From: a virus
Virus record (IMG/VR): IMGVR_UViG_3300022935_000103
Location: 1-25,950 of that record
DNA length: 25,950 nucleotides
Strand: one strand, 5' to 3'
Shown here: one piece after another, positions 1-25,930 of the stretch
How positions within the stretch are numbered: position 1 is the first letter of the stretch
Layout of the letters: every line of letters starts with the position of its first letter
Notes under the pieces: generated by a model
Seen by the model: the letters and a program-made list of their open reading frames with translations, nothing else
Databases searched by the model: none
What the model was told of the DNA's origin: nothing
Made by a program: the position numbers and the translations under genes

Positions 1-234
1 ATAGAAGGTGGCACGCATTGTGTTGCTACTGGAATGAACTATTTTGTGTTTAATATTCTTAACGTATTACATGCAGAAAAAACTTATGGCATTAGTGTTA
101 AAGATACTGTAGATACTTTTGTTAATCAGCGTCAAGAAAGAATTAATTTATGGGAGAAAAGAGCTAACAGTTCACCAATACTTTCTAACTATTTAAAAGA
201 GAATATCTATAATGACACAACAGATTCCGACTGA
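1..234 (+). CDS. C-terminal fragment of an unassigned protein
   Basis: The reading frame is open from the first base of the window to the TGA at 232-234, so this is the last 77 residues of a gene that begins outside. The first in-frame ATG (34) is internal and unlikely to be the real start. The fragment has a Gly/His/Cys-containing segment at its beginning (IEGGTHCVATGMN), followed by charged, probably helical sequence with many Arg, Glu and Lys. The next gene starts inside it (23-nt overlap), so the two are translationally coupled and belong to the same accessory operon. I do not recognise the family. The neighbourhood (2OG oxygenase, glycosyltransferase, carbamoyltransferase) suggests an enzyme, but the visible part shows no diagnostic catalytic motif. 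Confidence 0.8.
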   Translation: MEGGTHCVATGMNYFVFNILNVLHAEKTYGISVKDTVDTFVNQRQERINLWEKRANSSPILSNYLKENIYNDTTDSD

Positions 235-826
235 GATTTACCCTTTATTTTCGCAGCCTGTGTTTGTCGTTAATAACGACAAAACTCCGCATCAAGATGC
301 TATTGATTTTTTAAAGTCGTTAGACAGTCGTAAAAATTCAGGTGGCAATTTTTCAACCTGGGAAGATAACATACTTGAATTGCCAGAATTTTCTGAAATT
401 AAAAGTCAAATTGTCACAGCGGTAACAGAGTTTACAAATCATATTATGGGGTGGACTACTACTGATTTTTATATTACACAATCGTGGGGTAATGTAAATC
501 CAAAAGATACAACACATCACATACACTATCATTATAACAGTGTTGTTAGTGGAACATTTTATTTACAAACAGGAACAGAAGATCATATTGTATTTTATAA
601 CGATCCTAAGCCAATGTTAGACTTTGAAAAGACACATTTCAATATATACAATGCATCCAGTTATAAAGTGCCTGTAAGTACAAACACTATTGCAGTGTTT
701 CCTTCTACTTTAATGCACAGCGTAGATCAAAATAAAGATGATTGGGAGCGAATTAGTATAGCATTTAATGTCTTTGTTAAAGGACCAATAGGATCAAGAG
801 AAGCATTAACATATTTAGAGTTATAA
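212..826 (+). CDS. 2OG-Fe(II) oxygenase, TIGR02466-like
   Basis: A 204-aa protein with the layout of the 'putative 2OG-Fe(II) oxygenase' family TIGR02466/PF13759, which is common in marine phages. A His-rich iron-binding segment (HHIHYHYN, residues 102-108) is followed by SGTFYLQ, then FYNDPKP, and a C-terminal FPSTLMHSV containing H169. The motif ERISIAFN follows, in which R180 is the likely 2-oxoglutarate carboxylate ligand. Such enzymes couple 2OG decarboxylation to hydroxylation of a substrate; here the substrate is unknown. The ATG at 212 lies within the end of the previous gene, and the downstream gene begins within 10 nt, so it is part of a tight operon. The ribosome-binding site is weak, which fits translational coupling. 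It is clearly different from the second 2OG oxygenase at 3590-4099, so the operon carries two separate hydroxylases. Confidence 0.85.
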   Translation: MTQQIPTEIYPLFSQPVFVVNNDKTPHQDAIDFLKSLDSRKNSGGNFSTWEDNILELPEFSEIKSQIVTAVTEFTNHIMGWTTTDFYITQSWGNVNPKDTTHHIHYHYNSVVSGTFYLQTGTEDHIVFYNDPKPMLDFEKTHFNIYNASSYKVPVSTNTIAVFPSTLMHSVDQNKDDWERISIAFNVFVKGPIGSREALTYLEL

Positions 827-832
827 TTGATA

Positions 833-1768
833 ATGATAAAATTTGATACAGCATTTAATATTAATGGCGGGGCAGGAAGGGTATTGTGTTCAATACCTGC
901 ACTAGAACAGTACGAACAAGAAAATCCAGACGATAATTTTATTGTAGTAGTTGATTACGGAACTGAACTTTTTATTTCTCATCCTACACTTCACAAAAGA
1001 GTGTACGACTGGCGACATAAAAATTTATTTACAGATATTATTGAAGATATGAATTATTTGCAGCCTGAACCATATCACGTAAGAGAGTATTATACACAAC
1101 AATGTTCTATTTCTCAAGCGTTTGATATTGCTATTAATAAAAAAGGTATAAGAAATTTGCCTCCGGCAAATTTAATACTTACAAGAGACGAAGATCAAAG
1201 TGCAAAAGAAACAATAAAAAATATTAAATCTGATCGTAAAAATAAAAAAACAATTGTTTTTCAGCCTTTTGGAAGGGGTTCTGATTTAGAACCAGATAGA
1301 GTAAATCTCGACCCTTACGGAAAATCCTTCTCAATAAATGATGCTGTTAAGATTATCAACAAGTTACAAGAAAAATATACAGTAATTGTTATGGTCGAAA
1401 AACAGTTAGATTTTAATGAGTTAGGATGTAAAGACGTACCAGCACAAATACCAAATTTAAATCTACGTCAATGGGCAGGTATAATAAAACATGCCGACTA
1501 TTTTTTAGGATGCGACAGCGTAGGTCAACACATAGCACACAGTATGAATAAAAAATCAACTGTTATACTAGGAAGTACATTTGCAATTAATGTTACTTAC
1601 CCAGAATACAAAACATTTGATATAATTGATTTTGGCGAAGGTAAAAAAATGTATAGTCCATTAAGAATGTGTTATGACGAAGTTGCTGATATTAATAATG
1701 AACGATTAATGGATTTAGATAACGATAAGTTGTTGTTAATTGTAGATTCAGTTAGTAAAAATATCTGA
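833..1768 (+). CDS. GT9/heptosyltransferase-like glycosyltransferase
   Basis: A protein of about 311 aa with a GT-B-like layout. The N-terminal half opens with GGAGRVLCSIPALEQY (about residues 11-26), resembling the acceptor-side 'GD.l...P.l..l' start of heptosyltransferases. The second half has the GT9-like nucleotide-sugar signature: VFQPFGRGSD, then later ADYFLGCDSVGQHIAHSM followed by KSTVILGST. This matches the family pattern 'D..ig.DSg..HlA.....p.v.lfG.t'. It probably transfers a sugar from an activated donor. The frame can be opened six nt earlier at a TTG (827), but the ATG at 833 is the more likely start. The TGA at 1766-1768 is fused to the GAGG ribosome-binding site of the carbamoyltransferase gene. 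Acceptor and donor cannot be read from the sequence; the neighbouring carbamoyltransferase suggests a glycan that is further decorated. Confidence 0.7.
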   Translation: MIKFDTAFNINGGAGRVLCSIPALEQYEQENPDDNFIVVVDYGTELFISHPTLHKRVYDWRHKNLFTDIIEDMNYLQPEPYHVREYYTQQCSISQAFDIAINKKGIRNLPPANLILTRDEDQSAKETIKNIKSDRKNKKTIVFQPFGRGSDLEPDRVNLDPYGKSFSINDAVKIINKLQEKYTVIVMVEKQLDFNELGCKDVPAQIPNLNLRQWAGIIKHADYFLGCDSVGQHIAHSMNKKSTVILGSTFAINVTYPEYKTFDIIDFGEGKKMYSPLRMCYDEVADINNERLMDLDNDKLLLIVDSVSKNI

Positions 1769-1776
1769 GGTAATTT

Positions 1777-3597
1777 ATGAAAACAGGTTGGATAGCAGCA
1801 ATTGCTAGAGGACATAATTCGGGTGTATGCTTACTTAAAGACGGAAAAGTAATTTTTTCTATTGAAGAAGAACGCCTAAGTCGAATTAAGTACGACGGCG
1901 GTCCTTATGCATCTATGGTTAAAATTTTAGAATATACAGACAAAATTGATTATTTGTTTATAGCACACACTCAGTCGTTAAAGGACACAGCAGGACAAGT
2001 TGATTTTACTGGCGATGACGTTTATACTGGATTAGCAAGAAAATTAGGACTTATCGAACAAAGAGATGTTCCGTATGAGCATCCTCAAGTCATTGATTTA
2101 AGCCACATGCACCATAAATTACATTCTGCTTGTGCGTTTTATCGATCAGGATTTGATAAAGCAGTAAGTGTCATTGTAGACGGTGCTGGAACATTTATTC
2201 CTATGAATATTAATGGCGAAGACCATATGACATGGGAACTTGAAAGTATTATTAATTGTAATTATCCTGCAAAATTTACTACTCTTTATAAACACCAAGG
2301 AGGCAGAGGTCCTTACCTTAGTAAACATATACCTAACATGGCATCTGATGATTTTAACGAACAAGATAGTACACACGAATTATTTTTAGATGATAGTGCA
2401 GGCATAGTTAAAGCATACGAAGCAGTAACACAATATTGCGGATGGCAACCAATTGAAGCTGGAAAAACTATGGGGCTATTTCCATATGGTAAACCTAATG
2501 ATAGAATTCCTCAAATTTACACAGACGGCAATGGTGGTAAATGGAGGACTTCTGATCGTAATGTAATTATTCCTACATACCCTAATGGTGCATTAGTTAA
2601 CGAAGGAAGATATGAAGAACTGACAACAGACGAATCTGTAAATGACTTAACTTTATTACAAAATAGACGAGATTTAGCATATGCTGTACAAACTCAAAGT
2701 CAAGCAGAAGTACTAAGACTTATTCGAAAAGCTGTTGCTATGTCAGGATGTAAAAATGTAGTACTTAGCGGAGGATATGGACTAAACTGTGTTGCTAATT
2801 ATTGGTATTTAGGACAATTAAAAGACGAAGGTATTAATTTTTATGTAGAACCAATATCTAACGATGCAGGTACAGCAATGGGTGCAGCATTACTAGGATA
2901 TCATTCACTAACTGACGACAATAACGTTAGAGAGTATGCAGATAGTTTATATTTAGGACCACAATACACTTATACTAATGACGAAATTGTTCTAACAGCA
3001 AAAAAATATAATGCAGAAATTCAAACCGTTACTAAGAAAGATGTAGTTGAACTTATGACAGGTAAAGTAACTGGTAATAGAAATATTGTTACTATATTTC
3101 AAGGACGTTCAGAAAACGGGCCTAGAGCACTAGGTAACAGAAGTATTATGTATGATGCAACTGATCCGGATGGCAAAGACTTTGTAAACAAAGTAAAACG
3201 CCGTGAATATTTCCGTCCATTTGCAGGTAGTATCCTACATGAGTTTGCACACGAATGGTTTGACATGAGGGGTATGGATCAAAGCCCGCACATGATGTAC
3301 GCTATGAACTGTCAGCCAGGTGTTGCTGAAAAGATTCCTAGTATTATTCATGTAGATGGTACATGTCGTATTCAAACAGTAAAGCGTGAACAAAATCCTC
3401 ATTACTATGATATAATTAAAGAATTATATGAGCAAACCGGTGTACCTATTGTGTTTAATACTTCGTTTAATCTAGGGGGAGAACCGTTAGTTGAAACCTT
3501 AGACGATGCTATACGTACACTTGCTAATAGCGACATTGAGTATCTATATTTGCCAGAATATAACAAACTAATAACAGTTAGGAATATTAATGATTAA
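1777..3597 (+). CDS. O-carbamoyltransferase, NodU/CmcH/TobZ family
   Basis: At 606 aa this is full length for the family, with both domains. The N-terminal Kae1-like (ASKHA) domain shows ARGHNSGVCLL (residues 10-20), IEEERLSRIK (29-38), HMHHKLHSA (110-118), IVDGAGTF (133-140), GKTMGLFPYGKPN (229-241), VVLSGGYGLNCVAN (328-341) and ISNDAGTAMGA (360-370). The His/Asp residues at 113, 117, 135 and 363 correspond to the metal-binding set known in TobZ. The C-terminal YrdC-like carbamoyl-adenylate-forming part holds GRSENGPRALGNRS (443-456), KRREYFRPFAGS (474-485) and FNTSFNLGGEP (560-570). Family members use carbamoyl phosphate and ATP to form carbamoyl-adenylate and pass the carbamoyl group to a hydroxyl of a sugar or antibiotic. 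The start has a good ribosome-binding site (TGAGGTAATTT-ATG). The last codons overlap the next gene by 8 nt. Homologues occur in marine T4-like phages; the phage substrate is unknown. Confidence 0.95.
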   Translation: MKTGWIAAIARGHNSGVCLLKDGKVIFSIEEERLSRIKYDGGPYASMVKILEYTDKIDYLFIAHTQSLKDTAGQVDFTGDDVYTGLARKLGLIEQRDVPYEHPQVIDLSHMHHKLHSACAFYRSGFDKAVSVIVDGAGTFIPMNINGEDHMTWELESIINCNYPAKFTTLYKHQGGRGPYLSKHIPNMASDDFNEQDSTHELFLDDSAGIVKAYEAVTQYCGWQPIEAGKTMGLFPYGKPNDRIPQIYTDGNGGKWRTSDRNVIIPTYPNGALVNEGRYEELTTDESVNDLTLLQNRRDLAYAVQTQSQAEVLRLIRKAVAMSGCKNVVLSGGYGLNCVANYWYLGQLKDEGINFYVEPISNDAGTAMGAALLGYHSLTDDNNVREYADSLYLGPQYTYTNDEIVLTAKKYNAEIQTVTKKDVVELMTGKVTGNRNIVTIFQGRSENGPRALGNRSIMYDATDPDGKDFVNKVKRREYFRPFAGSILHEFAHEWFDMRGMDQSPHMMYAMNCQPGVAEKIPSIIHVDGTCRIQTVKREQNPHYYDIIKELYEQTGVPIVFNTSFNLGGEPLVETLDDAIRTLANSDIEYLYLPEYNKLITVRNIND

Positions 3598-4099
3598 ACA
3601 TTTTGAAAACTTTGCACCTACATGGTTACATAATAGAGCAAAGAATCAATTGTTGTCTCCATTAATTGATTGGCATTATCCAGGTTTTGGTGGACATAAT
3701 ATTACACTAGACAAAGCATGTTTTGCTAAACAACCTTTTAATATTGCAACTAACTACGAAGATTGGTCAAATGTAGATTCTTTAATGTATATGTTAGACT
3801 GGTGGATTGATGATAACAAAGAATGGTTTCAGTTTGAAGGGTTAAATCGTTGTTTAATTAATTTTTATACCCCTGGGCAAAGTACAGGCTGGCATACAGA
3901 TCACGAGTCTAGTAATTTTTTTAGTTTATTATACTATGTAAATGAAAGCGACGGTGGCACAATGTTTGAAGATAAAAAAATAATGCATAAAGAAAACAGT
4001 GCAATATTATTCAATTCCACTACTCCACATTCTCCTATATTATCTAAAGCGCCAAGGCGCATTAATGTAAATTGGATTATGGGAGGAAAATTGTTATGA
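3590..4099 (+). CDS. 2OG-Fe(II) oxygenase, prolyl-4-hydroxylase/AlkB-like
   Basis: A 169-aa compact 2OG-Fe(II) dioxygenase. The iron facial triad is readable: HxD in GWHTDHES (H102, D104) and the distal His in TTPHSP (H147), followed by the 2OG-binding Arg in PRRINVNW (R156 or R157). The segment FFSLLYYVNESDGGTMFED between them is the usual double-stranded beta-helix core with a Gly-Gly turn. It hydroxylates or oxidatively modifies an unknown substrate. Its ATG lies inside the end of the carbamoyltransferase gene and has an AGGA ribosome-binding site (TTAGGAATATTA-ATG), so the two are coupled. It is the last gene of the + operon, closed by the terminator at 4141-4165. The P4H-like HxD...H...R spacing separates it from the TIGR02466-type enzyme at 212-826. 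Confidence 0.85.
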   Translation: MIKHFENFAPTWLHNRAKNQLLSPLIDWHYPGFGGHNITLDKACFAKQPFNIATNYEDWSNVDSLMYMLDWWIDDNKEWFQFEGLNRCLINFYTPGQSTGWHTDHESSNFFSLLYYVNESDGGTMFEDKKIMHKENSAILFNSTTPHSPILSKAPRRINVNWIMGGKLL

Positions 4100-6872: not shown

Positions 6873-9800
6873 TTATTTTAAGAAATAGTTCCATGCTTGC
6901 GGATATCCATTAATACCCACATTAAAGTTCATCGGTGCAGTAACATCTATTGTAACCCCTGTTGGAGTTGTGATTTCTGTTCCTATTAACTTTACTTGGC
7001 CTGCTGTAATACTATTTACATTTAGTGTTGCAGCACCGCCACCAATTTGAGATGTGATATACGTTTTTATCGCTTTCTGCGTTGGAACAACGTTGTCACT
7101 ATCTGCAGCAAACGTACCGTCTGCTGAGAATTCAGTAATTAAAGCACTTGTGCCTCCTAACTGTACTGAACCTAATTGTAACTCTTGTAGACCGCTGATG
7201 TTAAATGCATCAGCATCTAGTGTTGCAATACCTGTTGATTGCTCAACACTAAACAAATCACCAACTCTAAAGTTACCATCTTGGTCTGTTGATGTATAGA
7301 ATACTCTACCACCACCAGATTCAACAGTTTCTTTAGTTGGATCAGGATCTATTAGAGGTATCCCTGGATAATTTGTATTAGTGAAGTTTCCAGTACCAAT
7401 GTCTAAGAAGTCGTGTCCTGTTAGACGTACTTGCGAATAACGGAATCTAATATCAAAACTATCACCATGATCCGGTGCATCTGCAATTGTTATGTTTGGA
7501 CTTACTTGTAGTAGCGCACTATAAGGTCCTGATCCTCTTAGAGTTCTTACAGTTACTAATTTGAAATAAACTCCTGGAATGCTTGCAAATTCTACGTTAG
7601 AACCTGGTAGCGGAACATCATCAAGATTTTCAACTTGTATATAAGCGCCAGGTTGATATCTATCAGCATAACCGTCTCCTGTAATACTTACAGCTACAAC
7701 ACTATATGTACTTCCTCTATTAGTCCAAGTAGGCTGTGCTAATACACCGTCACCAATACGTACAGTATGCGGAACATCTATAGTATTACTAGGATCTACT
7801 ACAGTCATAGTAGGAGGTGTTACATAACCTGATCCTGGATCTGTAATTCTAATTTCAACTATACTTCCGTCTTCAACTCTTGCTCTTGCTTTTGCAAGAT
7901 TTGCATAGCCGCCCGATGGTGAAGCAGCGAACACAATTCTTGGTTCAATTGAATATGCAGTACTATCATCTAATGTTGACGATATTGCTGCGTTAGTTAA
8001 ATGATCCCATCCTTGTGAATCGTCGCTCATTTTACGTACAGTTGCAATTTTAGTACCAGAATTGTATGTATCAATATAACCGTATTGTCCAACTCCTAAG
8101 CCACTAGTAATATAAATTGCCATTCCTATAAATGCTGCACTTGTATTAGTGTCAGTATTCGAAATTGTAATCGATGTGCTATTACCTGTTTGTGCATAGT
8201 TACTTGCAGCTACATATCCAGCACCTCCAAAGTCTCCTTCGCCATCTGCGTCAACATCAGTATTTAAAAGTCTGACTTCGTAAACACCGCCGTTAACTAT
8301 ATTAGCATTATCAACTTCTGCATTAATTCCGTCTCCGGTGACATCAAATACTGTAGCATCGCCTACAACTTGTACATCAAATGTTAAGTTAGCTGCTCCG
8401 CCACCGCCAAGATCTGAATCTTGAATTGTAATAGTATCTCCTGGCGAATGTCCTGTACCTCCCTTAACAATTGTAAGGGTGTTTACAAGCCCGCCTGCTT
8501 CGATAGTAATATCAAATTCTTGTAGTGTGCCACCACCTGATGAAGTACCTACTACTCCGTTATAGCTTCCAACTGTACGCAATGCATCAGCTGCACCAAT
8601 ATTAGTTACAGTCTTAATTGCCGAAGTTGATGTTGTATAGTTAACGCCAGCATTTAAATACTCTAGTTGAAGTATTTGATCACCGTCTGTAAATACATTT
8701 TGTACAATTGCATCAGTTGAGAAGTTATCAACAACACCTGTAATCGGAGTTTCGGTTACATCTACACCTTCAGCTACAGTTCCGTGTTCACCATAAGATG
8801 AGTTACCGTTTGTAGCACGAATTTTACCACCTTCTTCTGCTAGATAACCAATATGTCCGTAATACGAGAACACTGATACAAGTTCTGTTCTTGCTAGATT
8901 AGTACACCATACACCAATACCGTCACTTAGGACTTGTGTAAAGTCGTTAGCAACAATAGAGTCGTTGCCTCCGGCGTGTAAGTCTCCGTCAATTTTACAA
9001 CCTACACATCCTGTACCAAATGTTGTTACGTTTTGTACGTACGGAGATTTATTTGTAATCCATGCACGATTGTCATTTGGTCCCCAGCCAGGATCAAGTG
9101 ATACATAAGCGCCTGCTGTTGGACGTTTGGTTCCGTAACTATTAGCTGCTCCTAATGTACCATTTAAACTAGTAACAGTACAGTTACGCAAGCCTGTTCC
9201 GTTTCTCATATAGAACATATCTTCTAGTTCTGAGCCATTGACTGCATTTACATAATATCTTGCTGCTAATTTTGCTTTATAATTACCTGTATAAATTAAA
9301 TCGTATTGTAATGCATCGATATATCTGTTAACGTCTCTTTCACATGCTGCACTATCGTAATTAGTATTTCCTGGTTGGTTATCTGCAATATATGCTGTAA
9401 TTTCTGCAACTAAAAATACTCTGTTTGCTTCAATTGCTTCAATTGCTTGTGTATAACCTGTGTCGGTATTTGGCGTATTTGTTCCTGCTAGTGTAGGCGC
9501 TGCGCCGTTTGCATTAATATCAAAATCAATTTGGTCATATATATCTTGTATGATGCCGGCTGCGGCTGTTCCAGCGGCTGCACTACCTGCAGGAGTACTA
9601 GTTACTTGTACTTCTGTATTACTTACAGATTTTGTAATTCCAATATTTTGTGTAACATCGCTAATAATTGCTTGTAGTCTTGAAATAGCATCTAAGCTAA
9701 ATGGAACATCTGTTCCTGCAACAAAACTTCCGCCTGCATTAATTCTAGTTGAACGCAATTCGTCGCCAACTACTGCTGTATTTTTTGGAACAATAATTGG

Positions 9801-11939
9801 AAGTACTTCGTCAAACGAACCAGTTTTAACAAATATTGTACTGTTAACTTGTATTTCTGCAGGAATGCCGGCTGAACTTGCTGCATCTAATGCATTAGTA
9901 ATAATAGGCACCAATAACTCTATTTGTGCTTGTGCATCTGATTCTTCTATGTAATCTGTATCTTTATATTGAGCAACTGGGGACGGCACACTATTAGTTG
10001 TTTGATAGTTAACTGCTGGATCAAAGTTACTTAATACAGCATCCATTACTTCAATCGAATATGTGATTGCTGCTGAAGTTTCACCGTCTTCATCGGCTAT
10101 TGCTGCAATAAGTGCCCCAGCATTGTCAAAATAAGTTAGAGCTGCTGCTCTTGTTTTTTCATTTCCACCGTGTGTTAAATCCCATATTAATGCATCTACA
10201 ATTTGCCCAACATCTCTATAACATGTAGCTTTGTTGTATGTAAATGCTCCTGTAAATGGTGCTAAACTGTTAGCAATTTGATAATCAACCCATTCTGTAA
10301 CCTCTGCTTGAATAAATGTTTTATTCATTTTTAAAAGATATGCTGCATTTGGTCTTAAAGCACCTTTATCAACCTGCTCTGCTGCATATCTTACAGTTTT
10401 AAATGGCTGGTCAATAGTTGTACCATATGTAGGTGACGGACTGTCAACACCTTGGTTTGTGTCAACATAGTAGATATGATTTATGCTTCCTAAGTATGTC
10501 CACTCCGGAGCATTAGCATCGGAGTTGACTTTTAATACTTGTCCAGGAGTTCCTACAGGTAACCTAGTAGGACCTGCTCCACCATAGAAAACAATATCAC
10601 CTTCGGTAGTCAATACAGAAACTTCAGGACCGCCCGACATAATATTCCAGTATAGTCCGTTTGTATCTTGATCTGGTCTATTTTGTGCAGCTATTTCGTC
10701 CGATGTATGTCCGTCAATACAAACATATGAGTTAACACCATAACTTACTACATCTCCTAATTGATATATAGTTGAGTCGGCCCAAGCCCCTTTCCAAAAG
10801 AAACCACTGTTTAACCTTTCCCAGTAAAGTGTATTTGGTGGTTGTTGTCCAAAATGTTCTTGTATACATACATATGTATAACCGTTAAGTCTAACAACAT
10901 CACCAACTTCGTAGTTTTGAGCAGAGCTGTCATCTCCCCAATCGCCTAAAAATTTAAATCCTGTATTAAATAAGTCCCATTCTACTGGACTTACATTTGG
11001 CTTCATTGCTTTATGGTTTGTTTTAGCAACATAGGTGTAACCGCCATAGCTTACTAAATCGCCTGGTTGATAAACTACATCAATATCCCACGAATCTTCA
11101 AATTCTAAACCAGGAACAAATATAGCAAATTTACTATCATCAAAAGAATTATAACCGCCACTAGTATGATAATCAGTACATATCCATAGTCCGCCGCCAT
11201 TTTTTACAACATCATTTACTTTATATCTTGTATCTCTTGCCCAGTCACCTTTGTATTCTATGCCTTTGTGTAAATATTCCCAAGCTGATTGGTTAGCTTC
11301 TAAACCTTCTGTTTCAGACACTGCAGAAGTGTGACCTGTGATACAAACATAAAGTTGTCCGCCGTAGCGAGTAACATCGTTTGGCTTATATCTTGTAGAT
11401 ATAGTCCAACTATCTTTCCAATCAAAGCTAGATGAAAATACTTCCCATTTTGCTAAATCTATTTCTAATCCGTCAGTTAAATTATTAGCACTTGTATGTC
11501 CTTCTAAACACAAATATACTACTGCACCATACTTAACAAGATCATTTACTTTATATCTTGTAGATACAGTCCAATTTGACTTATAGTCAAATCCTTCTGC
11601 AAACAAATCCCATTTCTCTTGGTCATTTTCTAAACCTGATGTTAAACTAGATGCTGATGTATGTTCTAAATTACAAATATAAAGATATCCGCCATACTTA
11701 ACAATATCGTCTACATAGTACAGTGTATCAATAGCCCAATCGCCTCTCCACTCTTGACCGTCTGACATTTTTTGCCAATTATCAGAACTTTGAGCAAATT
11801 GAGCTTGGCTTGTATGTCCTGCTATACAAATGTATGTTGTGCCGCCAGCGCGAACAATATCATCTTTATAGTAAATTGTATTGGTGAGCCAATTGCCCTT
11901 CCATACAAATCTAATTCTACCTAATTTAAATTCAGCCAT
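6873..11939 (-). CDS. Giant tail fibre with CBM-like repeats and beta-helix
   Basis: A 1688-aa fibre protein. Residues ~13-435 are eight repeats of about 55 aa with the chitin-binding/CBM5_12-like pattern W..dt.Y...DiVkygg..Y.c...Hts. Next come a linker and a beta-helix start (YYVDTNQGVD..., QPFKTVRYAAEQV, 490-523). Two helical insertions follow (~532-696 and ~736-905), sharing a C-x-R-D-V...DAL..DL...GN motif. The conserved beta-helix core then has KSPYVQNVTTFG (964-975) and SIVANDFTQVLSDGIG (994-1009). The C-terminal part holds YSQVRLTGHDFLDIGTGN (1501-1518), VFYTSTDQDGNFRVGDLF (1546-1563) and VVPTQKAIKTYI (1617-1628), typical of marine T4-like fibres. It is paralogous to the 1572-aa protein upstream. 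It probably binds host surface polysaccharide. A late promoter (11957-11965) and the ribosome-binding site GGGAG precede the ATG. Confidence 0.88.
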   Translation of the reverse strand: MAEFKLGRIRFVWKGNWLTNTIYYKDDIVRAGGTTYICIAGHTSQAQFAQSSDNWQKMSDGQEWRGDWAIDTLYYVDDIVKYGGYLYICNLEHTSASSLTSGLENDQEKWDLFAEGFDYKSNWTVSTRYKVNDLVKYGAVVYLCLEGHTSANNLTDGLEIDLAKWEVFSSSFDWKDSWTISTRYKPNDVTRYGGQLYVCITGHTSAVSETEGLEANQSAWEYLHKGIEYKGDWARDTRYKVNDVVKNGGGLWICTDYHTSGGYNSFDDSKFAIFVPGLEFEDSWDIDVVYQPGDLVSYGGYTYVAKTNHKAMKPNVSPVEWDLFNTGFKFLGDWGDDSSAQNYEVGDVVRLNGYTYVCIQEHFGQQPPNTLYWERLNSGFFWKGAWADSTIYQLGDVVSYGVNSYVCIDGHTSDEIAAQNRPDQDTNGLYWNIMSGGPEVSVLTTEGDIVFYGGAGPTRLPVGTPGQVLKVNSDANAPEWTYLGSINHIYYVDTNQGVDSPSPTYGTTIDQPFKTVRYAAEQVDKGALRPNAAYLLKMNKTFIQAEVTEWVDYQIANSLAPFTGAFTYNKATCYRDVGQIVDALIWDLTHGGNEKTRAAALTYFDNAGALIAAIADEDGETSAAITYSIEVMDAVLSNFDPAVNYQTTNSVPSPVAQYKDTDYIEESDAQAQIELLVPIITNALDAASSAGIPAEIQVNSTIFVKTGSFDEVLPIIVPKNTAVVGDELRSTRINAGGSFVAGTDVPFSLDAISRLQAIISDVTQNIGITKSVSNTEVQVTSTPAGSAAAGTAAAGIIQDIYDQIDFDINANGAAPTLAGTNTPNTDTGYTQAIEAIEANRVFLVAEITAYIADNQPGNTNYDSAACERDVNRYIDALQYDLIYTGNYKAKLAARYYVNAVNGSELEDMFYMRNGTGLRNCTVTSLNGTLGAANSYGTKRPTAGAYVSLDPGWGPNDNRAWITNKSPYVQNVTTFGTGCVGCKIDGDLHAGGNDSIVANDFTQVLSDGIGVWCTNLARTELVSVFSYYGHIGYLAEEGGKIRATNGNSSYGEHGTVAEGVDVTETPITGVVDNFSTDAIVQNVFTDGDQILQLEYLNAGVNYTTSTSAIKTVTNIGAADALRTVGSYNGVVGTSSGGGTLQEFDITIEAGGLVNTLTIVKGGTGHSPGDTITIQDSDLGGGGAANLTFDVQVVGDATVFDVTGDGINAEVDNANIVNGGVYEVRLLNTDVDADGEGDFGGAGYVAASNYAQTGNSTSITISNTDTNTSAAFIGMAIYITSGLGVGQYGYIDTYNSGTKIATVRKMSDDSQGWDHLTNAAISSTLDDSTAYSIEPRIVFAASPSGGYANLAKARARVEDGSIVEIRITDPGSGYVTPPTMTVVDPSNTIDVPHTVRIGDGVLAQPTWTNRGSTYSVVAVSITGDGYADRYQPGAYIQVENLDDVPLPGSNVEFASIPGVYFKLVTVRTLRGSGPYSALLQVSPNITIADAPDHGDSFDIRFRYSQVRLTGHDFLDIGTGNFTNTNYPGIPLIDPDPTKETVESGGGRVFYTSTDQDGNFRVGDLFSVEQSTGIATLDADAFNISGLQELQLGSVQLGGTSALITEFSADGTFAADSDNVVPTQKAIKTYITSQIGGGAATLNVNSITAGQVKLIGTEITTPTGVTIDVTAPMNFNVGINGYPQAWNYFLK
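7258..7310. repeat. 53-nt block identical to 12368-12420
   Basis: This stretch in the 1688-aa gene is identical base for base to 12368-12420 in the 1572-aa gene. It encodes the VFYTSTDQDGNFRVG region. Flanking sequence of the same paralogous module differs at many synonymous sites. Confidence 0.9.
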
Positions 11940-20136: not shown

Positions 20137-20249
20137 CTCTTCTCCTCAACACGGGGATCCCGTCCCTCTAGCCTAAATTTTCAGCTCTCGCTCTTTGCTG
20201 GCTAACCACAGTTTGACCCTGCAGATATTGGTCTTATGCTGCATTAATA
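20137..20249 (-). promoter_or_regulatory. Structured 5' leader of the 906-aa fibre gene
   Basis: No gene fits here. Read on the - strand, the leader contains nested pairs TAGC(20204-20201)/GCTA(20172-20169) and CAGC(20200-20197)/GCTG(20185-20182). It also has a perfect ACGGG-ATC-CCCGT hairpin (20163-20151) just before the GAGGAG ribosome-binding site. The region is more GC-rich than the surrounding genes. Confidence 0.45.
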
Positions 20250-20258
20250 GTATTTATC
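20250..20258 (-). promoter_or_regulatory. T4-like late promoter (GATAAATAC)
   Basis: GATAAATAC on the - strand, 114 nt upstream of the 906-aa fibre ATG and just downstream of the 870-aa gene stop. Same nine-base element as at 11957 and 25670. Confidence 0.72.
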
Positions 20259-20269
20259 GTTTTATGGAA

Positions 20270-22882
20270 TTATCCTAATACAAGGACATATAAATTGAGG
20301 AATTCTTGCATATCAGCTTCAGTTGCACCTTCGCTATCTTCGATAACATTAACCCATGCAGTTCCGCTCCATATTTCTAATGAATCAACATCGCTGTTAA
20401 AACGTACTGTACCAACTTCTGGATTTTGGTGTCTGTTAGATGAATCTCCTGCAGGAATAACTAATCCTCCAGTAGTATTAAATTTTAAATATCCTTGACC
20501 AGTGTGAGAAAAATTTAATTGCCCAGTTGACACGTCAATTGAGCTTGCTGATATAATAATGTTATCTATAGTTACATTTTCATTAACACTATTTGGAATT
20601 AATAGATCTGTGTTTGCAGTTGATGATTTTATTATATTATTATTAATATTAACATCATCAATTTGTACACTGTTAAATTGAAGTGTTCCTGGAACAAGCC
20701 TACCCATTTCGGTAGCTCCAGCAGTAAAAATTAAGTTGTCATCTAAACTTTGATCAGCTGTTATACTAGTTAATCGATCTTGGCTGAAAATTCCATTAAA
20801 GGTTACATTTGACTCACCGTAACCTTCGTATATATTAAAGTCGGTATTCCATCTAATATCACCATCTGTTTCTTTACGTTTGCCAGTGTCGCCTTTAGGT
20901 ATTATAAATTTATCATTTGTTGATATTAAAAACTCTGTTGAATCAGGATGCCAAATTAAATCTCCATCTACTGTAGATATTGTATTTCCACTAAAGCGAA
21001 TATTTCCTGTACTAATTCTCTCACCGTCGATGTATGTTATATTTCCATTAGTATTAATATATATTGCACTGACGTCTTGTAAACTTACTTCACCAATATT
21101 CAAACTAGTTGTTCCATCTTCAAAATTAACAAAGAATGCATCACCTACACGAAATGCCCCTGCATGATCTGTTGTTACATAATATATTTTTCCGTTGTTT
21201 AATTCTACTGTTTCTTGATCTTGTAGTGCTAAACTTGGGTCGTTTCTTGTATCAACACCTGAACCAATGTATGCAAAGTTATGTTGTATTAGATACATTA
21301 ATGTGTCTGCACCATTTGCTACTGCACCGTAATTACCATATATGTTTGCACTATTAATACTTCTTAATTCTGAACCATATCGAACACCGTTATCTCCTAA
21401 ACTAGAAGTACCTTGTTCTGCCTTTAGTCCTACTGTTGCGTAATATGTAAAACAGTTTAACCATTCAACTCTAACACCGTTTGTCATTATGATACAATCG
21501 ACACCTGGTGTAATAAAGGTACAGCTATGAAATAACATACTACCTTCTAGTGTAGCACTATCTAATACGCTGCCGTCAATATATGCGCCACCACCCGGAA
21601 CTGTGCCGGTGGTTCCTAAGAGACCATCTAGTATATCTGTCGCTTCTGTACTACCACTTCCGCCGTCAAAAGTATCTGTAATTGTGCCGCCTGCGGCATC
21701 GCCAGCATCGTAAATATCTGTTACAGGTGCGTATGTAAAACTACCTTGTGTAATTACAGTTACGTTTCTAATGTATGGAGATCTTTCTGATATAATTGCT
21801 CCGTTTTGAAATACAAATGCATATCCTGGTGCATAAAAATCTTTAATAGTTATATTTTCTATAGTAGTATTGTGTGTTAATTCAAATGCATTATTAGTAC
21901 TAGTTGCATTTGTTGGTTTAACTATAACATTTCTTAAATCTTCTCCGCTAATTGAAACATTTTCAGGTACAACTAATGGAAAGGCTTCTTCATATTCTCC
22001 TGGAAATATATGTATCGTAACAGGGCCGCCGCTACTAGCATCAACAACATCAAGTGCATGTTCTAATGTGCGAAATGCACCATGTTGGTGATCACCAACA
22101 TTTGTGTTATCACCAAGTGTACTAACATAAAATACATTTCCTTGTCTTCTAGATAAGCTAATTTCGTCTGCTAACAATTCTTCTGCATTTACTGTTTCGC
22201 CATGTGCTTGATTAGTATAAAGTGCTTGCCATTTTTTAGTTTGAGATCCTAAGTTATAAAGTCCAGTAACATCTGGAATAATATCACTGTTTACATCAGA
22301 TTCAAATGTTACAGAATCTGTGTCGTCGTCGCCTAAAGTTAAATTGCCACCAAATGTTATGTCTCCAGTAGCATGTATGTCTCCCCAGTTTTTCCAATTA
22401 CTATTAATAATTAACTGCCCATTACCGTTAGGTCTAATCTCTAAGTTAGATCCGTCGGTTGTTGAAATTGTATTATCGTTTATTCTAAGATTTTGTGTTT
22501 CTAGTGTAGAAACAACTATCTCGTCTGCTGAATTAAAATTTAAATTTCCAAGAACTGCTGTTATACTATTATTATTAATTTCAATATTTGGAGAAACATT
22601 TAAATATGACGCTTCTAAATTAGTAGTTCCAAGTTGTGCGTTAACATCTAGTGTGCTATTAGGAGCGTTAGTATTAACACCAATTCCAATGTTTGCTGAA
22701 CCTATATCAGGTTCTTGGTAGTTTGGATCGCCATCGTCAAATTCAGGACCCGAAGCAAATGGTGGATCTCTATTAGGATCTACTTTTAAATATATTAGGT
22801 CAGATTCAAATGCAAGATCAATGCCTTGTCTTAAAAGATTATCTTTTAATACTGCGCCGGATATTCTACCTACTTGTGCCAC
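20270..22882 (-). CDS. Beta-helix tail fibre protein, 870 aa
   Basis: An 870-aa paralogue of the 906-aa fibre. It shares the N-terminus (GRISGAVLKDNLLRQGIDLAF, residues 5-25), an NIGIGVNTNAPNSTLDVNA region, and SDIIPDVTGLYNLGS (199-213). Its beta-helix contains VTIHIFPGEYEEAFPLVVP (288-306), RSPYIRNVTVITQGS (367-381) and TFITPGVDCIIMTNGVRVEWLN. It also shares GAFRVGDAFFVN and two P.G....R...G..R.N....E.....W modules (~661-692 and ~809-844). A Gly/Asp/Thr-rich segment of its own lies at ~387-430. It ends LNLYVLVLG, like its paralogue. The start is GTG (22880-22882), chosen because the N-terminus then aligns with the paralogue and AAAGGAG lies 7 nt upstream; the ATG 2 nt earlier is out of frame. 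A late promoter lies 20 nt upstream, inside the end of the preceding gene. Confidence 0.87.
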   Translation of the reverse strand: MAQVGRISGAVLKDNLLRQGIDLAFESDLIYLKVDPNRDPPFASGPEFDDGDPNYQEPDIGSANIGIGVNTNAPNSTLDVNAQLGTTNLEASYLNVSPNIEINNNSITAVLGNLNFNSADEIVVSTLETQNLRINDNTISTTDGSNLEIRPNGNGQLIINSNWKNWGDIHATGDITFGGNLTLGDDDTDSVTFESDVNSDIIPDVTGLYNLGSQTKKWQALYTNQAHGETVNAEELLADEISLSRRQGNVFYVSTLGDNTNVGDHQHGAFRTLEHALDVVDASSGGPVTIHIFPGEYEEAFPLVVPENVSISGEDLRNVIVKPTNATSTNNAFELTHNTTIENITIKDFYAPGYAFVFQNGAIISERSPYIRNVTVITQGSFTYAPVTDIYDAGDAAGGTITDTFDGGSGSTEATDILDGLLGTTGTVPGGGAYIDGSVLDSATLEGSMLFHSCTFITPGVDCIIMTNGVRVEWLNCFTYYATVGLKAEQGTSSLGDNGVRYGSELRSINSANIYGNYGAVANGADTLMYLIQHNFAYIGSGVDTRNDPSLALQDQETVELNNGKIYYVTTDHAGAFRVGDAFFVNFEDGTTSLNIGEVSLQDVSAIYINTNGNITYIDGERISTGNIRFSGNTISTVDGDLIWHPDSTEFLISTNDKFIIPKGDTGKRKETDGDIRWNTDFNIYEGYGESNVTFNGIFSQDRLTSITADQSLDDNLIFTAGATEMGRLVPGTLQFNSVQIDDVNINNNIIKSSTANTDLLIPNSVNENVTIDNIIISASSIDVSTGQLNFSHTGQGYLKFNTTGGLVIPAGDSSNRHQNPEVGTVRFNSDVDSLEIWSGTAWVNVIEDSEGATEADMQEFLNLYVLVLG

Positions 22883-22891
22883 TCATGTCTC

Positions 22892-22919
22892 CTTTGACAA
22901 TTGTATTTATTTGTCAAAG
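22892..22919. promoter_or_regulatory. Inverted repeat enclosing a late promoter
   Basis: Perfect 9-bp arms CTTTGACAA (22892-22900) and TTGTCAAAG (22911-22919) flank a 10-nt centre that contains most of the late promoter AATAAATAC (- strand, 22903-22911). The arm nearest the 870-aa gene overlaps its ribosome-binding site (AAAGGAG). The other arm and part of the centre hold the last codons and stop of the 165-aa gene. Confidence 0.7.
22903..22911 (-). promoter_or_regulatory. T4-like late promoter (AATAAATAC)
   Basis: AATAAATAC on the - strand, 20 nt before the GTG of the 870-aa fibre gene. It overlaps the TAA of the 165-aa gene and differs from the other copies only at the first base. Confidence 0.6.
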
Positions 22920-25177: not shown

Positions 25178-25576
25178 TTACTCTACATCGCCTTCAATGT
25201 TAGTTGCGTTTGTTAATGCATCATCATCACCTGCTTCTTCAATCTCAGCTACATCACCTGTACCTGTGAAGTCCCAAGCAGTTGTAGAACCGTTGTCCAT
25301 TGTTGCTTTACGTGCAGCAATCTTAATTACTTGACGTGCTGTTCCGCCGTCATCAACTGTAATTGACATCTGTCCTGCTGTTAGTGCTGCTGCCGCTGCA
25401 TCTGTTAACACACAATCTTTTGTTGCAGTACCGTCTGTGCAACGAAACTTTTTAGATCCTAGTTGCTTAACGATCCAACCTGGAACGCTTGATGTACCAT
25501 TGTGAAATTGAACTTTGATTTCGTCGCCGCCTGCTGTAGGTGTTCCGAAATATCTTTTATTAAGTGGTCTTCCCAT
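25178..25576 (-). CDS. Conserved virion-type protein, 132 aa (MGRPLNKRYFG)
   Basis: A 132-aa protein starting MGRPLNKRYFGTPTAGGDEI, with KVQFHNGTSSVPGWIVKQLG, FRCTDGTATKDCVL and a strongly acidic C-terminus (EIEEAGDDDALTNATNIEGDVE). It resembles a small protein recurrent in marine T4-like phages near structural genes and is probably virion-associated; I do not know its function. The frame extends upstream to 25750 without an ATG that makes sense: the extension would run through the terminator and the late promoter. The ATG at 25574-25576, with AAGGAGA just before it, is therefore the start. It is the first gene after the late promoter at 25670-25678 and probably one of the more strongly expressed late genes. 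Its codon choice and GC content look higher than those of its neighbours. Confidence 0.85.
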   Translation of the reverse strand: MGRPLNKRYFGTPTAGGDEIKVQFHNGTSSVPGWIVKQLGSKKFRCTDGTATKDCVLTDAAAAALTAGQMSITVDDGGTARQVIKIAARKATMDNGSTTAWDFTGTGDVAEIEEAGDDDALTNATNIEGDVE

Positions 25577-25669
25577 TTGTTTTCTCCTTATTAGAAGTCC
25601 GATGCGGGTTCTAGCCGCTACGCTGTGGGTACAGCATAAGTCCGCCTCGCGGCACACTATCTGACACAA
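25577..25669 (-). promoter_or_regulatory. Structured 5' leader of the 132-aa gene
   Basis: Gene-free leader between the late promoter and the ATG. On the - strand it can form UAUGCUGU-ACCC-ACAGCGUA (25638-25619, 8 bp with one G-U). It can also form CCGC-GAG-GCGG (25652-25642) and GCGG-7 nt-CCGC (25618-25604). The G-U pair would be a C-A mismatch in + strand RNA, which favours a - strand transcript. The AAGGAGA site stays single-stranded. Confidence 0.5.
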
Positions 25670-25678
25670 GTATTTATC
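25670..25678 (-). promoter_or_regulatory. T4-like late promoter (GATAAATAC)
   Basis: GATAAATAC on the - strand, directly after the terminator at 25689-25712, so it restarts transcription for the 132-aa gene and what follows. Identical to the elements at 11957 and 20250. Confidence 0.73.
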
Positions 25679-25688
25679 ACAAATAGAA

Positions 25689-25712
25689 AAAGCCCGCACA
25701 GTGGCGGGCTTT
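25689..25712 (-). terminator. Intrinsic terminator (- strand)
   Basis: 9-bp arms AAAGCCCGC / GCGGGCTTT with a 6-nt loop. The T run (TTTTTCTATTT) follows only on the - strand side; the + side reads TTTAAAATAAG. It therefore ends transcripts coming from the right, just before the next late promoter. Confidence 0.9.
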
Positions 25713-25930
25713 AAAATAAGGGTGGGTGAAGGACTTGGGTTTACCTCCAACTAAGCGCCTAGATACCTGTCTATGTTACGCCTAGAACCTCAGTTCTGCT
25801 TAGTATCGCAGTTAGCATACTCTACGTCTCCGTAGTACATGCCGGGCACTACCCCTAACCAAGTGCGCTTATCCTCTCTAGCCAAGGATTGTTAGCGCCA
25901 ACCCGTATAACAACGTCTTGTTATATTATT
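25713..25930 (-). ncRNA. Candidate structured small RNA
   Basis: No convincing reading frame lies on either strand, and the base composition is more GC-rich than the flanking genes. Read on the - strand it folds into successive helices. They are: TATAACAA-4 nt-TTGTTATA (25925-25906); GCGCT/AGCGC enclosing ATCCT/AGGAT (25898-25865); a 12-nt stem GCAUGUACUACG-GAGA-CGUAGAGUAUGC with one A-A mismatch and a GNRA loop (25842-25815); and ACUAAGC/GCUUAGU (25804-25798 with 25756-25750) around AGAAC-UGAG-GUUCU (25797-25784). GGGUU (25904-25900) can pair with AACCC (25741-25737), closing the whole set. Two G-U pairs in the GNRA stem would be A-C mismatches in + strand RNA, so the - strand is the likely transcript. 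It would end at the terminator 25689-25712. No tRNA or tmRNA signature was found. The 5' end and promoter are not certain. Confidence 0.5.

Follow-up and report, generated by a model that had tools for sequence, protein, structure and literature searches.

The window analyzed here, a stretch of 25,950 nucleotides from an IMG/VR virus record (IMGVR_UViG_3300022935_000103), carries on its reverse strand a junction between a 165-aa ORF, which we call U, and an 870-aa ORF, which we call D (Table 1). The 906-aa ORF that follows D also belongs to the tail/baseplate wedge family. Reading the sequence directly, we find the palindrome CTTTGACAA-N10-TTGTCAAAG at 22892-22919, so a feature described in an earlier note on this DNA is real. 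On the reverse strand the junction reads CTTTGACAA ATAAATACAA TTGTCAAAG GAGACATGAGTGGCACAAG, with arms that are perfect 9-mers (22911-22919 and 22892-22900) and a 10-nt loop (22901-22910) that contains a T4-type late-promoter box, ATAAATA, and the TAA of U. The end of U, ..TTT GAC AAA TAA, runs directly into ATAAATAC, followed by AATTGTCAAAGGAG and then by the GTG of D (22882-22880), which lies 6 nt past the Shine-Dalgarno sequence (SD) and 24 nt past the stop codon of U. Only the AAAG of the window's SD, AAAGGAG, is paired, within the 3' arm. The sequence therefore bears out the earlier description of a perfect palindrome with a late box in its loop, overlapping a stop codon and an SD. The box is indeed in the loop, but the loop is ATAAATACAA, and the A that opens "AATAAATAC" is part of the arm.

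Table 1. Coordinates of the features at and around the U/D junction.
Feature	Position	Strand	Basis
Next late-type box upstream; possible source of read-through	25671..25677	-	Box scan
Upstream gene U, 165-aa ORF, ends ..HNFDK-TAA	22907..23404	-	TAA at 22907-22909; relatives end in same residues
5' arm CTTTGACAA, last U codons TTT GAC AA(A)	22911..22919	-	Sequence, fold
Late-promoter box ATAAATA, in loop (ATAAATAC = 22903-22910)	22904..22910	-	Motif scan, relatives
Predicted transcription start, +/- ~2 nt	22898	-	Box at -13 to -6 as in T4 (PMC2988020, in part)
3' arm TTGTCAAAG, takes AAAG of SD	22892..22900	-	Sequence
Shine-Dalgarno AAAGGAG	22889..22895	-	Sequence
Gene D, 870 aa, GTG start, tail/baseplate wedge family	20270..22882	-	phrog_13163, E 2.5e-91

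As RNA, the 28-mer folds at -7.4 kcal/mol (z -5.1), a value that 0 of 200 shuffles equaled. The window holds 8 perfect hairpins with arms of at least 9 and loops of 3-14, compared to 1.5 (sd 1.4) in 20 dinucleotide shuffles, and from the shuffle counts we calculate a chance of about 0.002 for such a hairpin on this 30-nt site. Some of the other perfect hairpins look terminator-like, so the junction site must be judged by its place and by its relatives. A perfect 20-bp palindrome, ATGTTGGTGATCACCAACAT, lies within D at 22082-22101, and an out-of-frame ATG overlaps the GTG of D in the sequence ATGAGTG (22880-22886, reverse strand), as it does in L094, L107, L119 and L136, though not in all relatives. 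Elsewhere in the window are a 1688-aa ORF (6873-11939, reverse strand) with six stretches matching the CBM_5_12 carbohydrate-binding module and a late-type box 25 nt before its start, and an opposite-strand cluster (212-4099, forward) comprising two 2OG-Fe(II) oxygenase-like ORFs, a carbamoyltransferase and a weak glycosyltransferase match below the cut-off.

According to the accessible part of PMC2988020, a T4 late promoter is an 8-bp TATA box lying roughly one turn of the helix upstream of the start, with position -13 named, and closely similar late consensus sequences are reported there for the cyanophage S-PM2; excerpts of PMC3014915 give the letters of the T4 late promoter as TATAAATA. 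The box motif is not enriched by itself in the window (10 occurrences, compared to 16.3 expected). The promoter call rests on the place of the box and on the relatives. Among 242 distinct D-type junctions, drawn from 456 loci and defined by an N-terminus with GRI[STGA]G, 151 carry NTAAATA 23-32 nt upstream of the start, nearly always at 23-29. The late sigma factor of T4, gp55, has a distant match in three of the four contigs searched (E 5e-7 to 2e-6, 33-35% identity over ~80-100 residues) and none in the fourth, of 35.5 kb. We infer that the box is an active late promoter with +1 near 22898.

Other kinds of element were considered at this site and rejected. Matches to a sigma-70-type promoter occur at chance level in the window (78, compared to 75.2 expected), and an intrinsic terminator is neither listed at the palindrome nor suggested by a T run past the stem. 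Unlike the divergent late-promoter palindromes of T4 26/51 and 4/53, the site has no forward-strand box, and U and D are co-directional. On the reverse strand, no terminator-like site is listed between D and the next late-type box upstream. That upstream box is located between two Rfam matches on the same strand (25574-25923), a manA RNA (25718-25923, 81.3 bits) and a freshwater-2 RNA (25574-25656, 75.5 bits); manA RNA is reported from T4-like cyanophages in the consulted part of PMC2864571. In L153, a late-type box at ~1528 (forward strand) lies in the loop of a 14-bp terminator-like hairpin, which is followed by a T run and precedes a 128-aa ORF.

A junction identical to that of the window was found in another contig, of 35,512 bases. 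The nearest cultured relatives are T4-like cyanophages, of which 84 records match the full D protein, all partially; cultured phages gave no DNA match to the junction region and no match to the D N-terminus. ATAAATA is present within 25 nt of the stop codon in 89 of 101 distinct HNFDK-stop junctions. Three layouts recur among the homologous junctions. In layout A (the window, L163, L171, L165, L168, L144 and L160), the FDK-stop codons pair with TGTCAAAG at the SD, and the exact pattern, with a fixed 3-nt spacer, occurs in 12 contigs. In layout B, the SD (..ATAGGA, ATCGGA, ATTGGA or TGTAAGGA) is paired by TCCTAT, TCCGAT, TCCAAT or TCCTTACA, located immediately before the box or on it. In layout C, ATACTGTAT, which begins in the box, pairs with ATACAGTAT, which ends in the start codon, and the SD is in the loop. 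Varied arm pairs have the same role: CTTTGACA/TGTCAAAG, TCCTTACA/TGTAAGGA, TCCTATA/TATAGGA, TCCGAT/ATCGGA, TCCAATAA/TTATTGGA and ATACTG/CAGTAT. Because the left arm of layout A is fixed by the protein through the NFDK codons, selection there can have acted on the right arm only. TTT GAC AAA is present in 11 of the 11 listed junctions whose box overlaps the stop codon at the same offset, including three with a hairpin that does not use that arm; since these three also have TTT, the choice of TTT over TTC is unusable as evidence for the arm.

To measure pairing, we grouped the 151 box-bearing junctions into 57 clusters (edit distance >6), with kinship handled by clustering alone. The junctions were cut at the predicted +1, 12 nt past the first base of ATAAATA, and the halves were swapped between clusters with the box, stop codon and SD kept. 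Pairing energy was -6.05 kcal/mol in the native junctions, compared to -3.82 kcal/mol (sd 0.24) after recombination (0/10,000). Watson-Crick stems of at least 6 were present in 29.8% of native and 12.3% of recombined junctions (2/10,000), and stems of at least 7 in 14.0% and 4.0% (5/10,000). The result was robust to stricter clustering (42 and 24 clusters), to shifting the cut 2 nt either way, and to restriction to the 38 clusters with an [F/L]DK-type stop, and the GC contents of the two halves are not positively correlated (-0.16). When hairpins were sought with no cut imposed, 33 of the 57 clusters showed a stem of at least 6, with the 5' arm ending at +3 or earlier in 33 of 33. In 25 of the 57, a stem of at least 6 bp has a 5' arm ending by ~+1 and a 3' arm on the SD-start region, compared to 5.0, 11.8 and 6.4 in three kinds of shuffle (0/200 each), the first of which keeps the box and SD fixed. 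As judged from these sequence comparisons, selection in the relatives acts on the pairing, not on the letters of the arms. Conservation of both arms had been proposed in the earlier note as a check; the letters are not kept beyond what the codons dictate, the left arm being set by ..NFDK-stop, but the pairing is.

No excess pairing was found between a farther-upstream segment and the right half (2262/5000) or in three samples of 57 box-less genes (1452, 1207 and 1527 of 2000). The same was true of 32 other box-bearing starts chosen by loose criteria from G002, G003 and the window (905/5000), and of 30 non-D starts chosen by stricter gene criteria with G001 and G004 added (1720/5000), 4 of which have a stem of at least 6, matching recombination (0.133 compared to 0.130). 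The absence of an excess at these other late promoters of the same phages, a small sample, indicates that the excess belongs to the D gene. Even there, pairing is kept but not universal: 24 of the 57 clusters are without a perfect stem of at least 6, including the two most populous (21 and 10 junctions), and some of these, for example L113 and L302, have imperfect pairing of the post-box region with the start codon region. The SD by itself was, on average, no more paired than in recombinants (0.524 compared to 0.521, 2229/5000); this measure is uninformative because layout C leaves the SD unpaired in the loop, and it was dropped. One-position covariation in the TCCN arms is weak, at 8/23 compared to 5.9 expected among clusters (p 0.17) and 29/64 compared to 23.3 without clustering (p 0.014).

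These features suggest a way in which translation of D could depend on where its mRNA begins. On read-through mRNA both arms would be present, and their pairing would hide the SD, or the start codon in some relatives, raising the cost of opening. An mRNA begun at the promoter in the loop would start near 22898, would be without the 5' arm and would have an open start region; the loss of this arm is expected from the position of the box and the T4 spacing, which together predict the 5' end. Consistent with this, the SD or start codon lies in a helix in the predicted folds of the longer RNA, and the late box is within or just after the 5' arm. The mean cost of opening the region from SD to start was 6.53 kcal/mol for read-through RNA, 2.68 kcal/mol for late RNA and 5.25 kcal/mol (sd 0.17) for recombined read-through RNA; late RNA is less structured because it is shorter, so the informative contrast is that between native and recombined. 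In the window, the costs are 10.8 kcal/mol for read-through and 3.1 kcal/mol for late RNA. The earlier note had proposed that read-through mRNA hides the SD of the 870-aa gene and that promoter-derived mRNA is without the upstream arm, and the comparison of relatives supports this proposal, given that pairing recurs with different arms, that the 5' arm ends by ~+1 and that the 3' arm is mostly on the SD or start codon. We infer an effect of the hairpin on translation from these patterns, and we think it fairly probable that the palindrome works as an RNA hairpin through which translation of D comes to depend on the promoter of origin.

Control of this kind has been described for T4 e, soc, 49 and I-TevI, in which long transcripts sequester the start, whereas translation proceeds from late transcripts, which are missing the structure's 5' portion (PMC3014915 and PMC2988022, both in part); the genes so controlled are late genes on early or middle polycistronic RNA (excerpts of PMC2988022). 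As in T4 e, soc and 49, the late box at the D junction lies just before a short leader, the 5' arm is at or before the late start, the SD/AUG is in the 3' arm and the late RNA is predicted to be without the 5' arm (accessible part of PMC3014915). However, the T4 hairpins are on early or middle read-through mRNA and silence it early, whereas the neighboring upstream genes here look late, and the 5' arm in the window belongs to the coding region of the upstream gene. I-TevI, I-TevII, I-TevIII, segB and Aeh1 mobE have the same promoter/hairpin layout (PMC2988022, in part), but they are homing endonucleases in early or middle units, not tail genes. T4 gene 26, named among the genes with a sequestered start in excerpts of PMC2988022, is a baseplate gene in which, along GCTCCTTT..TATAAATA..AAAGGAGC, an anti-SD arm and an SD arm flank the late box; the anti-SD arm is provided by the SD of gene 51, which is divergent, whereas the window has no opposing gene. 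In both T4 26/51 and 4/53 (L496), the SDs of divergent late genes are mutual anti-SDs across late boxes, forming start-blocking hairpins both ways.

As a yardstick, we examined 40 T4 starts and found a box within 75 nt for 18 of them. The starts of T4 e, soc, 49 and I-TevII gave -11.4, compared to -4.1 with any right half, as expected for regulated genes; the other 14 box-bearing starts, which include the sequestration-regulated gene 26, gave -5.9 compared to -5.3. The local fold of the window (-12.1) falls between those of T4 soc (-10.9) and e (-14.9), although the flanks used differ slightly. Literature listings showed no relevant cyanophage paper describing such hairpins. Our best reading is that the D junction is a further example of the arrangement already known from T4 e, soc, 49 and I-TevI, placed here inside a late operon. 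Since the upstream box is late-type and no terminator-like site is listed between it and D, the read-through RNA is probably late too. The neighboring upstream genes look like late virion genes, and for this reason we prefer a role in dosage over the early/late timing of T4 e; we think that the device would set the supply of D from its own short mRNA.

The hairpin could also gate coupling, with D closed on read-through mRNA unless a ribosome terminating on U melts the 5' arm, which would keep D in step with U, while free D mRNA would come in addition from its own promoter. In the window, the stop codon is in the loop, the 5' arm is U coding sequence and D starts 24 nt past the stop, and in most hairpin-bearing relatives the upstream ORF ends 21-47 nt before D. 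The opening of the hairpin by a ribosome ending U also counts against promoter-dependent silencing of D, as do the stem-less clusters (24 of 57), the pairing of AAAG alone within the window's AAAGGAG and the protein-fixed left arm. Sequence alone cannot separate silencing from coupling, which is an equally legal use of the hairpin and would fit most junctions. Two clusters, L309 and L310 (5 junctions), do not fit, since their upstream stop is ~26 nt before the 5' arm, beyond the reach of a terminating ribosome, and the 8-bp stem is still present; as an explanation of the hairpin, coupling seems rather unlikely to us.

The earlier note raised the possibility that the palindrome acts as DNA, as a cruciform or an operator at which a dimeric protein would control the late promoter. 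The symmetry in the window is perfect about the box, and the site also folds as DNA, at -6.3 kcal/mol. Among relatives, however, the letters of the arms vary widely, many palindromes are centered on the SD and not on the box, the position of the 3' arm follows that of the SD or start codon, and layout C is not centered on the promoter; in addition, AT-rich arms of 9 bp are short for cruciform extrusion. A DNA-level element is therefore very improbable. It might instead be argued that the complementarity is an accidental or inherited by-product of fixed motifs, the promoter, stop codon and SD, given that the NFDK codons dictate the 5' arm, that SDs are G-rich and that some lineages are stem-less. 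Yet recombined halves keep the fixed motifs and pair worse (0/10,000), and shuffles with the box and SD fixed fall short as well (0/200), so we disfavor this explanation as improbable.

A different structure precedes the 906-aa paralogue. Between the box at 20251-20257 and this ORF is a conserved structured leader of ~115 nt (window 20137-20257, reverse strand) of the form ACAAACYGYGGTYAACC..GGTTRGAGGGACAGGATCCCCG..AGGAG, and 62 distinct leaders of this kind are present in the loci (89 places). In an alignment of 34 sequences, consisting of 33 of 38 clustered leaders plus the window (L187, L215, L236, L256 and L280 were left out), for 7 of the 9 pairs in two helices at least one sequence has both partners changed, and 96.4% of cells are paired. 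The covariation score is 0.302, compared to 0.110 when shuffled (0/500) and at most 0.116 when slid. An Rfam search with E up to 10 gave nothing for the window leader and, for L218 and L222, only weak matches far below threshold, and a narrow literature search, including part of PMC2864571, found no description of it. The leader is a candidate, possibly undescribed, cis-regulatory RNA.

We tentatively suggest, as a possibility about which we remain doubtful, that marine T4-like phages carry a self-occluding late promoter on one tail gene, repeatedly rebuilt with different arms in three geometries (an anti-SD upstream of the box, an arm in the last codons of the upstream gene, or pairing of the start codon that leaves the SD in the loop), and that it may serve as a dosage valve in an all-late operon, separating the supply of a tail protein from read-through transcription. 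This raises the question of why a late gene would be shut off on late read-through mRNA. Promoter-dependent translation of D would mean that a control device familiar from textbooks on T4 also operates in uncultured marine phages and on a tail/baseplate gene. The comparison shows that it is the pairing that is kept, not the sequence. The presence of complementary halves across a late start is a sequence rule that could be used to find such genes in metagenomic phages.
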